This document shows positions 22,773-26,237 of a stretch of 60,122 nucleotides of DNA, piece after piece. The stretch is from Thalassovita litoralis (GTDB lineage: Bacteria; Pseudomonadota; Alphaproteobacteria; Rhodobacterales; Rhodobacteraceae). The notes under the pieces were generated by a model, which saw only the letters and a list, made by a program, of their open reading frames with translations, was not told the origin of the DNA and ran no database searches. Location of the stretch: NCBI RefSeq assembly GCF_900182725.1, contig NZ_FXTO01000021.1, positions 1 through 60,122 of the forward strand, in the 5' to 3' direction. The position numbers and the translations under genes are program-made. How positions within the stretch are numbered: the stretch's first letter is position 1; every line of letters starts with the position of its first letter.

Positions 22773-22898
22773 GGTGGCTCCGGTCTGTGATGTGGTTCAT
22801 CTAAGGGTAGGGGCAGCGTAAGGCAATGTTTTCCCGATAAGAATAACTGTGTCTTAATTCCGACTAAATAACTCAACATATTGAAATGTCGTAATAAA

Positions 22899-22927
22899 TT
22901 GACGGGATGTCAGGGGCGCGCTATGTT
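22899..22927 (+). promoter_or_regulatory. Sigma70-type promoter, far upstream of ileS
   Basis: TTGACG (22899-22904), a 17-bp spacer and TATGTT (22922-22927). Transcription would start near 22934, giving either a roughly 400-base ileS leader or a separate short transcript ending at the T-rich stretch near 23143. Confidence 0.5.
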
Positions 22928-23162
22928 GTCCCTAACACGCGAATCGCAGTTTTCCACCACGGAACGCGCAAGCCAGATACGCCACGCAGCCAGCCCTGTG
23001 CCAGCCACGCAGCCCAATCAAGCCAGCCATTCCGTTAGGGGATAACCGCGCATTCCCGTCTTGGGGTCGCGCCCGCGCCATCCAGCGTTTTGCCAGATGC
23101 AGCCAGCCTGTCGCCCCCGTTATTTTACGGATTTTTCTTTTATCTCGGCCCCTCGCAGCCGC

Positions 23163-23191
23163 TTTACCCTGCGCGTTGTGCGCCGTATAAG
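23163..23191 (+). promoter_or_regulatory. Sigma70-type promoter of the ileS leader
   Basis: TTTACC (23163-23168), a 17-bp spacer and TATAAG (23186-23191). Seven bases separate the -10 from the A of the mini-ORF ATG at 23199, so the transcript would begin at or next to the start codon: a leaderless message. Confidence 0.5.
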
Positions 23192-23198
23192 CCGCAGC

Positions 23199-23249
23199 AT
23201 GACGCATATGATCGCGATCATTATTCGAATTACATGCCCGGCGCTCTGA
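23199..23249 (+). CDS. Isoleucine-rich leader peptide upstream of ileS
   Basis: A 16-codon ORF, MTHMIAIIIRITCPAL, with isoleucine at positions 5, 7, 8, 9 and 11 (codons ATC, ATC, ATT, ATT, ATT). It has no Shine-Dalgarno sequence, but the TATAAG -10 box seven bases upstream would make the AUG the 5' end of the message; leaderless trp leader peptides with that layout are known in alphaproteobacteria. The last codons and stop lie within the left arm and loop of the hairpin at 23237-23266, the arrangement expected if a ribosome stalled on Ile codons alters RNA folding. The gene downstream is isoleucyl-tRNA synthetase, so the codon bias fits sensing of charged tRNA-Ile. Translation is inferred. 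Confidence 0.55.
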   Translation: MTHMIAIIIRITCPAL

Positions 23250-23266
23250 GCATAAGAGCCGCCGGG
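23237..23266 (+). promoter_or_regulatory. Hairpin of the putative ileS attenuator
   Basis: CCCGGCGCTCT (23237-23247) pairs with AGAGCCGCCGGG (23255-23266), eleven pairs with one bulged C and a 7-base loop. There is no U run after it, so classic intrinsic termination is unlikely; a G-poor, C-rich stretch follows (23281-23320), which would suit Rho-dependent or translational control. Confidence 0.5.
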
Positions 23267-23333
23267 ACAAGGCGTATGGGTTTCCGCGCCGCCCCCATCC
23301 AGACTTCACACGACCATTCGAAGGACGCCACCG

Positions 23334-26237
23334 ATGTGCGCCGACACCCCTGAATACAAAGACACGCTGAACCTGCCGCAAACCGATTTCCCGATGCGGG
23401 CGGGTCTGCCCAAACGTGAACCGGCTTGGCTGCAACGCTGGGCGGATATGGATATCTATGGCCGCCTGCGCGACAAGGCCAAAGATGGCAGCCGCCAGCC
23501 CTTTACCCTGCATGATGGCCCGCCCTATGCCAATGGCCACCTGCATATCGGCCACGCGCTGAACAAGACGATCAAGGATATGATCGTGCGGTCGCATCAG
23601 ATGATGGGCTTCGATTCCCGCTATGTCCCCGGTTGGGACTGCCACGGTCTGCCGATTGAATGGAAGATCGAGGAACAGTACCGCGCCAAGGGCAAAAACA
23701 AGGACGAAGTGAACGTGGTGGATTTCCGCCGCGAATGCCGTGCCTTTGCCGAAAAATGGGTTGATATCCAGCGCGAGGAATTCAAACGTCTGGGCATCAC
23801 CGGTAACTGGGACGATCCTTATCTGACGATGGATTACCACGCCGAGGCCGTGATCGCCGAAGAATTCATGAAGTTCCTGATGAACGGCACGCTGTATCAG
23901 GGATCGAAACCCGTGATGTGGTCGCCGGTGGAAAAAACCGCGCTGGCCGAGGCCGAGATTGAATACCACGATCATAAATCGCACACGATCTGGGTGCCGT
24001 TTGCTGTGGCCTCGGGGGCTGACACTTTGGCCGATGCCCGTGTCGTGATCTGGACCACGACACCGTGGACCATCCCATCGAACAAGGCCGTGGCCTTTAA
24101 CCCGAAGATTGCTTATGGCCTGTACCGCGTGGACGCCACGCAGGATGAAAGCTGGACCAACCCCGGCGATCTGTATCTGTTCGCTGATGCCCTGGCCGAG
24201 GATGCGCTGACCAAATCCCGTGTGACTGAATTTACCCGTGTGCGTGATGTGGATGCGGCGGAATTTGACGGTATGATCCTCAAACACCCCTTCGCCGGTC
24301 TGGACGGGGCAAATGGCTTCTGGGATTACGACGTGCCGATGATCGACGGCGATCACGTCACCGACGATGCCGGGACCGGTTTCGTGCACACCGCGCCCAG
24401 CCACGGTGCTGACGACTATGAATGTTTCGTCAAGCGCAACTGGATCGACCGCATGACCCACAATGTTGGCGAGGAATCGGAATTCCTGCCGCATGTGCCG
24501 TTCTTTGCCGGGCTGAAAGTGCTGGATCACAAGGGCAAGGAAGGCAAGGCCAACACCGCCGTGATCGACAAGCTGGTCGAGGCGGGCGGTATCATCGCCC
24601 GTGGCCGTGTGACCCATAGCTATCCGCATTCGTGGCGGTCCAAAGCGCCGGTGATCTTCCGCAATACGCCGCAATGGTTTGCTGCCATCGACCGTCCGGC
24701 GGGCGGGGATGATACCTATGGCAAAACCATCCGCGAACGGGCGCTGACCTCGATTGACCAGTTGGTGAAATTCACCCCGCAATCCGGGCGCAACCGCCTG
24801 TATGCGATGATCGAAACCCGCCCCGATTGGGTGCTGTCGCGCCAACGGGCGTGGGGCGTGCCGCTGACCTGTTTCGTGAAAAAGGGCGCGCTGCCCACCG
24901 ACGATGATTTCCTGCTGCGTGATGCTGCCGTGAACAAACGTATCTTTGACGCGTTTGAAACCGATGGCGCGGATGCTTGGTATGCGGACGGGGCCAAGGC
25001 CCGCTTTATCGGTGACGCGGCCAACCCGGACGATTACGAACAGGTGTTCGACGTGCTGGACGTGTGGTTCGACAGCGGTTCGACCCACGCCTTTGTTCTG
25101 CGCGACCGTGCCGATGGCACCGCGGACGGTTTCGCGGATGTCTATATGGAAGGCACCGACCAACACCGCGGCTGGTTCCATTCGTCCTTGCTTCAAGCTT
25201 GTGGCACCAAGGGCCGCGCACCCTATCGCAACGTGGTTACGCACGGGTTCACGCTGGACGAGAAGGGCAATAAAATGTCCAAGTCGTTGGGCAATACCAT
25301 CGTCCCCGAAGAAGTGGTGAAGCAATACGGCGCGGACATCTTGCGCCTGTGGGTGGCCCAGACCGATTACAGCACCGATCAGCGGATCGGGCCGGAAATC
25401 CTGAAAGGCACGGCTGACAGCTATCGCCGTTTGCGGAATACCATGCGGTTCATGCTGGGGTCGCTGGCGCAGTTCGATGAATCGCAACGCGTGGCCCCCG
25501 CTGACATGCCCGAACTGGAACAATGGGTTCTGCACCGTCTGGCCGAATTGGATCATCGGGTGCGCAACGGTTATGCGACCTTTGATTTCCAGGGCGTGTT
25601 CAGCGCGGTGTTCAATTTTGCCACGGTGGATCTGTCGGCCTTCTATTTCGACATCCGCAAGGATGCGCTGTATTGCGATGGCGATACGTTGCGCGCCAAT
25701 GCCGCCCGTACCGTGCTGGACATCCTGTTCCATCGCCTGACGACATGGCTGGCCCCGATCCTTGTCTTCACGATGGAGGAGGTTTGGCTGGAACGCTTCC
25801 CCGGCGATGACAGCAGCGTGCATTTGCAGGACATCCCCGAAACGCCTGCCGATTGGCTGAACGAACCGCTGGCCGCGAAATGGGCCAAGGTCCGTCAGGC
25901 CCGCCGCGTCGTGACCGCAGCGTTGGAAATCCAGCGCACGGACAAGGTGATCGGCGCATCGCTGGAAGCGGCCCCGGTGGTCCATGTCCGCGATGCCGAT
26001 ATGCTGGCCGCGCTGAAATCGGTGAACTTTGATGACATCTGCATCACCTCGGCCCTGACGCTGAGCGGCGATCCGCTTCCGTCCGAGGCCTTCCGTATGC
26101 CCGAAATCGAAGGCGTCGGCGTGGTGTTTGAAAAGGCAGAAGGTCAAAAATGCCAGCGGTGTTGGAAAATCCTGCCGGATGTTGGCACCCACAGCCATGC
26201 AGGCACCTGCAAACGCTGTGACGAAGCGCTGGGATAA
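23334..26237 (+). CDS. ileS: Isoleucyl-tRNA synthetase
   Basis: A 967-residue class I synthetase that charges tRNA-Ile. HIGH is at residues 71-74 (NGHLHIGHALNK), KMSKS at 647-651, the editing CP1 domain lies between them, and the C-terminal zinc finger shows CQRCW...CKRC. The length and zinc finger are those of the bacterial housekeeping type. ATG 23334 follows AAGGA by eight bases. The gene has a long upstream region with two possible promoters and an isoleucine-rich mini-ORF, so its expression may respond to isoleucine supply. A good intrinsic terminator follows. Confidence 0.98.
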   Translation: MCADTPEYKDTLNLPQTDFPMRAGLPKREPAWLQRWADMDIYGRLRDKAKDGSRQPFTLHDGPPYANGHLHIGHALNKTIKDMIVRSHQMMGFDSRYVPGWDCHGLPIEWKIEEQYRAKGKNKDEVNVVDFRRECRAFAEKWVDIQREEFKRLGITGNWDDPYLTMDYHAEAVIAEEFMKFLMNGTLYQGSKPVMWSPVEKTALAEAEIEYHDHKSHTIWVPFAVASGADTLADARVVIWTTTPWTIPSNKAVAFNPKIAYGLYRVDATQDESWTNPGDLYLFADALAEDALTKSRVTEFTRVRDVDAAEFDGMILKHPFAGLDGANGFWDYDVPMIDGDHVTDDAGTGFVHTAPSHGADDYECFVKRNWIDRMTHNVGEESEFLPHVPFFAGLKVLDHKGKEGKANTAVIDKLVEAGGIIARGRVTHSYPHSWRSKAPVIFRNTPQWFAAIDRPAGGDDTYGKTIRERALTSIDQLVKFTPQSGRNRLYAMIETRPDWVLSRQRAWGVPLTCFVKKGALPTDDDFLLRDAAVNKRIFDAFETDGADAWYADGAKARFIGDAANPDDYEQVFDVLDVWFDSGSTHAFVLRDRADGTADGFADVYMEGTDQHRGWFHSSLLQACGTKGRAPYRNVVTHGFTLDEKGNKMSKSLGNTIVPEEVVKQYGADILRLWVAQTDYSTDQRIGPEILKGTADSYRRLRNTMRFMLGSLAQFDESQRVAPADMPELEQWVLHRLAELDHRVRNGYATFDFQGVFSAVFNFATVDLSAFYFDIRKDALYCDGDTLRANAARTVLDILFHRLTTWLAPILVFTMEEVWLERFPGDDSSVHLQDIPETPADWLNEPLAAKWAKVRQARRVVTAALEIQRTDKVIGASLEAAPVVHVRDADMLAALKSVNFDDICITSALTLSGDPLPSEAFRMPEIEGVGVVFEKAEGQKCQRCWKILPDVGTHSHAGTCKRCDEALG

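Follow-up and report, generated by a model that had tools for sequence, protein, structure and literature searches.

A conserved, predicted leaderless leader frame upstream of ileS in Rhodobacteraceae and other alphaproteobacteria as a probable sensor of charged tRNA-Ile

Upstream of ileS in Thalassovita litoralis lies a 16-codon frame which, together with its codons and the hairpin that overlaps its end, far exceeds chance expectation. Comparison across alphaproteobacterial loci suggests that this frame is probably translated from a leaderless message into a leader peptide, which gauges the charging of tRNA-Ile and regulates ileS in cis. The stretch of DNA analysed, referred to here as the window, covers positions 1 to 60,122 of contig NZ_FXTO01000021.1. 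Within it, the leader, its promoter, and its presumed target are arranged as follows.

23163..23168, + strand: -35 element TTTACC, 17 nt from the -10 element, from the letters and from conservation in 80 family loci
23186..23191, + strand: -10 element TATAAG, 7 nt before the ATG; transcription is predicted to begin on the ATG or beside it, giving a leaderless message
23199..23249, + strand: leader frame of 16 codons, MTHMIAIIIRITCPAL followed by a stop codon, with its ATG at 23199
23217..23225, + strand: Ile run, ATC ATT ATT before CGA, with Ile kept in Rhodobacteraceae
23226..23232, + strand: core CGA-ATT-A, the proposed sensor codon pair, from codon conservation
23237..23266, + strand: hairpin H1, 11 pairs with one bulge, separated from the core by 4 nt and including the stop codon of the leader
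23271..23290, + strand: hairpin H2, GGCGU..GCGCC, seen in Rhodobacteraceae
23291..23319, + strand: C-rich, G-poor spacer upstream of the ileS ribosome binding site, a possible Rho loading region
23320..23329, + strand: Shine-Dalgarno region of ileS, GAAGGACGCC, assigned by eye
23334..26237, + strand: ileS, isoleucyl-tRNA synthetase, 967 aa, with its ATG at 23334, the presumed target

The gene at 23334 is taken to encode the essential enzyme isoleucyl-tRNA synthetase, a name that comes from the first, sequence-only reading of this DNA. That reading had also described a 16-codon frame with five Ile codons at positions 5 to 11, a TTTACC/TATAAG promoter that would place the transcript start at the ATG, and an 11-bp GC hairpin, and the letters bear out each of these, with the start at the ATG still a prediction. 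The Ile codons are codons 5, 7, 8, 9, and 11, and there is one Cys codon; the leader peptide has no NCBIfam match up to an E-value of 10. The predicted energy of H1 is -19.8 kcal/mol, whereas shuffled sequences average -8.9 (z -4.3) and none of 200 is as stable. H2 alone, at -9.2 kcal/mol (z -0.27), does not stand above its shuffles. A generic sigma-70 scan lists another promoter, at 22899-22927, and does not list that of the leader. Support for the leader promoter comes from conservation.

Conservation was assessed in 80 further Rhodobacteraceae loci (L001-L080), the best 80 of at least 592 ileS relatives, close species included. These loci were picked by ileS similarity alone, not by motif; they come from many genera, and the one with the highest identity is a Thalassovita. 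The pattern ATTA-N4-CCCG occurs within 220 nt upstream of ileS in 80 of the 81 loci (the window and the 80 relatives), each time with an in-frame ATG. In the exception, L066, CGAATTA is followed by another GC hairpin. A hairpin search that takes the best of many windows finds one at every locus, which in itself proves nothing. The leader peptides share the consensus AIII-R-I-[I/T]-x-P-A-L, with residue counts among 80 loci of A 55, I 67, I 68, I 71, R 76, and I 80, then I 47, T 27, S 4, or M 2, then a variable residue, and finally P 80, A 78, and L 73. The C-terminal end is constant, and variation between loci falls on the N-terminal codons and on the spacer. Codons of the Ile run change synonymously with Ile mostly preserved (67, 68, and 71 of 80 at the three run codons). 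It had been suggested that the Ile codons and the hairpin, if functional, would be kept in relatives while the flanks drift, and this is what the family loci display. Several loci have a shortened run, and in the extreme cases, L023 and L076 retain one Ile codon and L075 two. These speak against the main reading, since they hold fewer Ile codons than a classic Ile-run attenuator would want.

The Ile codon adjoining the hairpin is ATT in 80/80 loci, although ATT makes up only 152 of 1217 Ile codons (12%) in the 5' coding parts of ileS from the same loci. The codon before it is CGA in 76/80, compared with 33 of 1492 Arg codons (2%) in those coding parts, and the codon after it is the rare ATA in 26/80, compared with 32 of 1217 Ile codons. 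In the four loci where CGA has been replaced (by CTA twice, by CCA, and by CAG), ATT stays, and L087, a Rhodobacteraceae genome without the strict motif, has GCA-ATT. In three marine Rhodobacteraceae with AT-rich upstream parts (L033, L038, and L046), the ATT codon and also a CCCGG hairpin persist, although the spacer differs and CCA or CTA stands in place of CGA.

Both promoter elements named by the sequence-only reading are kept in the family. A TATAA-type -10 hexamer lies 6-10 nt before the leader ATG in 80/80 loci; in 76 of 77 family copies, it matches TATAAT at four or more of six positions, with T1 and A2 fixed, compared with 14% at control positions. A distance of exactly 17 nt holds for the best -35-like hexamer in 77/80 loci, and this hexamer scores at least 4/6 in 78/80 compared with 8/80 at control distances, the window's own TTTACC being one of the two templates used for scoring. 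Outside the family, a -10 element precedes the leader in 32 of 40 other ileS copies (control 12%), but in only 9 of 26 copies that stand before the small ACT-like gene described below (control 6%). The position of the -10 element fits, and suggests, a leaderless message. The frame itself can be counted as well. An in-frame ATG is present in 77/77 family copies, 40/40 non-family ileS copies, and 25/26 ACT copies, or 142/143 in all, even though the distance to the ATG varies. The other two registers contain 13 and 3 (n=77), 2 and 10 (n=40), and 1 and 2 (n=26) ATGs, respectively. This count left out two loci in which the ACT-like gene comes first (L142 and L157) and three with other genes (L233, L242, and L244).

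Both hairpins are retained as paired structures. In alignment A1, which consists of 37 of the 81 family sequences picked by eye for diversity and not for folding, H1 has 98.2% of cells paired and changes on both sides in 4 of 9 pairs, and H2 has 95.0% of cells paired and changes on both sides in 2 of 7 pairs, including GGCG..CGCC to GGTG..CACC. Together, they have standard pairs in 96.8% of cells, and double-sided changes affect 6 of 16 pairs (31 cells, compared with 7.8 in shuffles and at most 7 in slid controls). A second alignment, A2, contains 38 of 51 sequences, themselves part of 77, that were selected because their hairpin is short, clean, and opens with CCC; because of this choice, its pair counts, and those of the covariance model built on it (R1), lean towards structure, and A1 is the fairer test. 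As a side observation, H1 is followed at a distance of 11 nt by a TG step (23277-23278 in the window) in 84% of 70 family loci. Hairpin-stabilised pauses of RNA polymerase have this same spacing, 11 nt behind the hairpin. The TG step is absent as a trend in 46 non-family loci and may only reflect H2.

The element extends well beyond the family. An ileS gene was found in all 289 alphaproteobacterial genomes sampled, and the upstream parts of 109 were read, 29 as returned by the search and 80 hand-picked from the best ileS matches. The strict motif CGAATTANNNNCCCG occurs within 600 nt upstream of ileS in 44 of these 109 loci, a count that gives no class-wide rate since the loci were partly hand-picked, and nine further loci have CGAATTA in other surroundings. 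What is shared outside the family is one AUU after CGA, 4 nt before a hairpin. This ATT is the sole Ile codon common to all the non-family motif loci, where the search motif itself demands it; 23 of 42 have a second Ile after it. Among the core-bearing loci read outside Rhodobacteraceae, none showed a long Ile run. The Ile run to which the sequence-only reading had assigned the sensing is kept in the family, but it is not what the wider set has in common.

The model R1, comprising the core CGA-AUU-A, 4 nt, and a CCCGG hairpin, was searched in the 289 genomes without gene information. It matches at 72 places in 61 genomes from 39 of 158 families, and finds no match, under strict filters, in the other 228. 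Absences in the model searches are soft because of these stricter filters. Within Rhodobacteraceae, 83 of 100 genomes have a match in a search of this stricter kind. Of the 65 class ileS upstream parts without the strict motif, R1 recovers one, L087 (E 0.0013), and the rest have E-values of at least 0.058. In a draw from the phylum, 22 of 249 genomes have a match, each of them of the same class or closer; 249 is the total drawn, in which the share from outside the class is not listed. In the window's own genome, R1 has a single match, at ileS. Plain pattern matches number three there, and the two besides ileS fall within other ORFs or at their 3' ends.

Sorted by hand from coordinates and from reading of the loci, the 72 R1 places lie immediately upstream of ileS in 35 cases, upstream of a small ACT-like gene in 31, upstream of ribF-ileS in 1, and elsewhere in 5. 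The ribF case (L255) was recognised by eye as an element followed by a ribF-like gene and then ileS. In two genomes (G127 and G231), the ACT-like gene stands between the leader and ileS. Elsewhere, the gene behind the ACT-like gene encodes threonine ammonia-lyase IlvA (ilvA) in L249 and citramalate synthase (cimA) in L228, both above curated cut-offs; others are an aspartate dehydrogenase (L236), a DUF4743-Nudix gene (L251), and genes without evident link. The likeness of the ACT-like protein to ACT domains and to small subunits of acetolactate synthase stays below curated cut-offs, and its single match in the PDB up to an E-value of 1 is IlvH (2f1f, E 0.83). The profile used to find it was built from 16 of the loci that it then found. 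As a side observation, the protein is about 86-145 aa long, with the rough signature CFSVxAxADPxxxPRVLExFAKRGLVP (L228, L249, L250, and 16 further loci). The five places elsewhere comprise a SnoaL-like ORF in two genomes of one genus (G037 and G263, loci L242 and L244) and a kinase-like ORF (G033, locus L233), both identified by eye and without evident isoleucine link, and two further genomes of the genus of G033 (G162 and G260).

A model that contains no gene information thus lands at ileS and at isoleucine-linked genes, which points to an isoleucine regulon. The 67 of 72 matches before ileS, the ACT-like gene, or ribF-ileS give the element the matching amino-acid gene expected of an attenuator, and conservation suggests that it also has the short ORF with cognate codons that marks leader-peptide attenuators. 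Variations on the arrangement occur beside this. One genus has two leader elements 182-200 nt apart before the same ACT-like gene (L247 at 332 and 514, L248 at 274 and 474), and L250 has two CGAATTA cores, at 326 and 338, with 12 nt from one to the next. A second architecture, in which the leader frame reads through the hairpin, is seen beside the stop-in-hairpin type in L230, L232, L234-L239, L241, L245, and L254.

Frame, codon identity, promoter position, hairpin, spacing, and gene context come from comparison; from these we infer stalling, a read-out by H1, and the direction of control. Translation of the short frame would start at the ATG at the 5' end of the message. A shortage of Ile-tRNA-Ile would hold the ribosome at the point where CGA occupies the P site and AUU the A site. 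The helicase of the ribosome meets the mRNA at the entry, about +11 from the first P-site base. At the proposed wait, 12 nt separate the first P-site base from the start of H1, which would thus lie just outside the ribosome and stay folded. When Ile-tRNA is plentiful, the ribosome would reach the stop codon inside H1 and open the hairpin. The folded H1 and the parked ribosome would then be the "on" signal that permits ileS production, and the same element before the ACT-like gene would coordinate isoleucine supply. CGA is read through an inosine-adenine wobble, and its presence in the P site may slow the next codon; its loss in four loci suggests a softer role for CGA. In the fed state, the output would most likely be less transcription read-through, through Rho, or leader translation interfering with an overlapped downstream start.

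The sensing of Ile proposed by the sequence-only reading is strongly supported, as far as sequence can support it, by the conserved frame, the Ile codons, and the gene context. Its second proposal, a change of folding that raises ileS expression, finds no such support: no alternative pairing of H2 and no intrinsic terminator were found, and the predicted shift in exposure is 0.015, in the family only. In the window, there is no terminator-like site of the Rho-independent (intrinsic) type within 22800-23600, in agreement with the earlier remark that no U run follows the hairpin, and a run of four or more T after H1 is found in 0 of 70 family loci. The predicted exposure of the ileS ribosome site in 79 family loci is 0.540 with a stalled and 0.525 with a released ribosome (a difference of 0.015, p 0.0016, from folding only); it goes up by more than 0.02 in 28% and down in 11%. 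For 44 non-family loci, the values are 0.491 and 0.486 (p 0.87). Masking of the Shine-Dalgarno sequence that a stalled leader ribosome relieves, as in translational attenuators of the erm type, is unlikely to be the switch: the family shift has the expected direction but is judged too small, and there is none in the 44 others. Pairing of the 3' arm of H1 with the 5' arm of H2 can form in 94.6% of cells, but it has no double change. It is also rarely favoured in a folding comparison for which the position of H2 came from a loose pattern and the P(H2) values are not used, and it was rejected. By folding, upstream pairing has a value of 0.58 in the window and a mean of 0.03 over 66 loci. An upstream hairpin, H0, that might compete with H1 was noticed by eye in several GC-rich loci and dropped, being no commoner than when upstream parts are swapped between loci. 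With no terminator, no U run, and no supported alternative pairing, mutually exclusive antiterminator and terminator structures are not found, and the lack of a clean on/off pair conceded by the sequence-only reading holds here as well.

Of the other ways in which the leader could act, transcription attenuation by Rho, with the ileS spacer as a rut region, or in some lineages by an intrinsic terminator, is a possible one, if on balance doubtful. The C-rich, G-poor stretch before ileS pointed out earlier recurs in the family: C averages 39% and G 19% over 70 spacers, and C exceeds G in 70/70. Of 26 family stretches from -64 to -14, 11 have two or more C for each G, compared with 1 of 48 long window ORFs, a mechanical set of controls that includes spurious frames. 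This family spacer keeps Rho in play. Outside the family, the bias is weaker (C 34%, G 25%; C at least twice G in 3 of 40 stretches). The intrinsic-terminator form gains from 8 of 46 non-family loci in which at least four of the 8 nt that follow H1 are T, and loses by the window and the family, where neither a terminator nor a U run is found.

An unlikely alternative is that translation alone interferes, with no RNA switch: ribosomes on the leader, by running into the downstream start or terminating close to it, would lower initiation there, and a stall far upstream would relieve this. The ACT-like loci lend themselves to such coupling, since in 11 of 26 ACT copies the leader frame runs through the hairpin, with its stop 90-120 nt from CGA, and in six such cases worked by hand the ACT start, a codon chosen by the author, lies at +73 to +82, before the leader stop. 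That leader frames run over the ACT-like start suggests interference with initiation there. In the remaining 15 ACT copies, and in 36 of 40 non-family ileS copies, the leader instead stops 18-27 nt after CGA, where H1 lies. Moreover, in 123 ileS loci, the leader stop is 66-221 nt before the ileS start with no overlap, and H1 would have no role. The output routes at ileS and at the ACT-like gene need not coincide.

Somewhat less probable still is an arrest peptide, in which a nascent R-I-x-x-P(A/V) would stall the ribosome, as in TnaC, and sense isoleucine or another ligand, with codon identity secondary. R-I, P, and A/V do recur, within the family as well as among class loci that have the motif, and the constant C-terminal and variable N-terminal ends of the leader would suit an arrest sequence. 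In arrest peptides, residues would be kept irrespective of codons. In the family, CGA and ATT are fixed as codons far above their usage in ileS; outside it, codon identity is partly given by construction, the motif having been searched as nucleotides. Furthermore, pairing can explain Pro and Ala, both of which are encoded in the 5' arm of H1, and Arg is lost in the same four loci in which ATT stays. That a protein binds the conserved block as DNA or RNA, the reading frame being incidental, is very improbable, for although the seven bases CGAATTA are near invariant as nucleotides, the ATG is in register despite its varying distance and the Ile run changes synonymously.

We return to the leader as a sensor of charged tRNA-Ile and to its place among known systems. 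In the E. coli pheM-pheST and ilv leaders, cognate codons control a synthetase or a branched-chain amino acid operon. Unlike the ileS leader, pheM and ilv use an antiterminator/terminator pair, are led by a Shine-Dalgarno sequence, and are not known to have a fixed codon pair and hairpin spacing. T-box riboswitches control synthetase genes, ileS among them, through tRNA charging by binding tRNA directly, with no translation. Neither the T-box nor any other Rfam family has a match in the window at the gathering score, and a likeness of H2 to T-box sequence was dropped, as TGG is not kept. The Trp leader trpL (peTrpL) is leaderless, beginning at the 5' end of its transcript, and serves the biosynthetic gene trpE from an attenuator that yields the sRNA rnTrpL. 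The ileS leader is likewise an alphaproteobacterial leader ORF that is predicted to be leaderless; it differs from trpL in that trpL has Trp, trpE, and an attenuator yielding an sRNA. In Sinorhizobium meliloti, trpL is the leader ORF of a transcription attenuator (PMC10117765).

A close relative from the same order is uORFC-8-2, a short uORF upstream of cysS in Rhodobacterales with tandem Cys codons and, in all cases, the U run of an intrinsic terminator, for which the main text of the source proposes ribosome-mediated attenuation from comparison; there, it is found only at cysS and only in Rhodobacterales (PMC8632094). Like it, the ileS leader is a small upstream frame that contains codons of the cognate amino acid and precedes the gene of an aminoacyl-tRNA synthetase in the same order. 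Unlike uORFC-8-2 as that text describes it, the ileS element has no terminator in the family, and it has a fixed CGA-AUU core, other families of the class, and a second gene. The window leader, with its Ile codons, single Cys codon, and no terminator, does not combine tandem Cys codons with an intrinsic terminator, and so does not belong to that class. A comparative study of attenuation of synthetase operons by Lopatovskaya et al. (2010), cited in PMC4833913, might mention ileS. In the main text of PMC8632094, as distinct from its supplement, "ileS" and "isoleucyl" do not occur, and the parts seen of PMC13236596, PMC10117765, PMC4833913, and PMC2965389 contain no ileS leader. The open-access literature searched yields, in the portions available, a single mention of an "ileS leader", the Caulobacter "ileS leader CDS" CCNA_03934, named as a negative control in a ribosome-profiling study (PMC4117421). 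Like our leader, it is a small CDS upstream of ileS, but it belongs to another alphaproteobacterial order, and it is likened here by name and position only, since the accessible text mentions it without sequence, mechanism, or regulation (PMC4117421). Thus, the earlier statement that no Ile leader for ileS had been described in this group is uncontradicted by the open-access text searched, outside of which lie the 2010 study and the supplement of PMC8632094; it needs the qualification that such a leader CDS had been named in Caulobacter (PMC4117421).

The element is not filed as a classic attenuator because the defining terminator switch was tested and not found; in its sensing, it would resemble the leader-peptide regulators. 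Taken together, the observations tentatively suggest, at somewhat below an even chance, an isoleucine regulon over many alphaproteobacterial families whose sensor is a single AUU after CGA. CGA, with its inosine-adenine wobble, would occupy the P site, a hairpin at a fixed distance would meet the mRNA entry, and one slow codon, not a codon run or a terminator switch, would read the charging of tRNA-Ile. The element, possibly ancestral to the class, would serve ileS and the ACT-like gene linked to ilvA and cimA, and the Ile run would be a later addition in Rhodobacteraceae. Against the main reading stand the 228 class genomes without a match, the 5 of 72 matches that lie elsewhere, and the fact that no general output was found.

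Leader-peptide control of aminoacyl-tRNA synthetase genes has so far been known in single cases. The fixed codon pair and hairpin distance offer a testable account of how one codon would suffice to sense charging, and since a specific inhibitor of IleRS exists, a clear experiment is at hand. Because there is no terminator, the read-out may be something not yet described. The element also provides an annotation handle for small leader ORFs. In the 39 families of the class in which it was found, a single sequence-recognisable element links ileS, the ACT-like gene, and, in one case each, ilvA and cimA.
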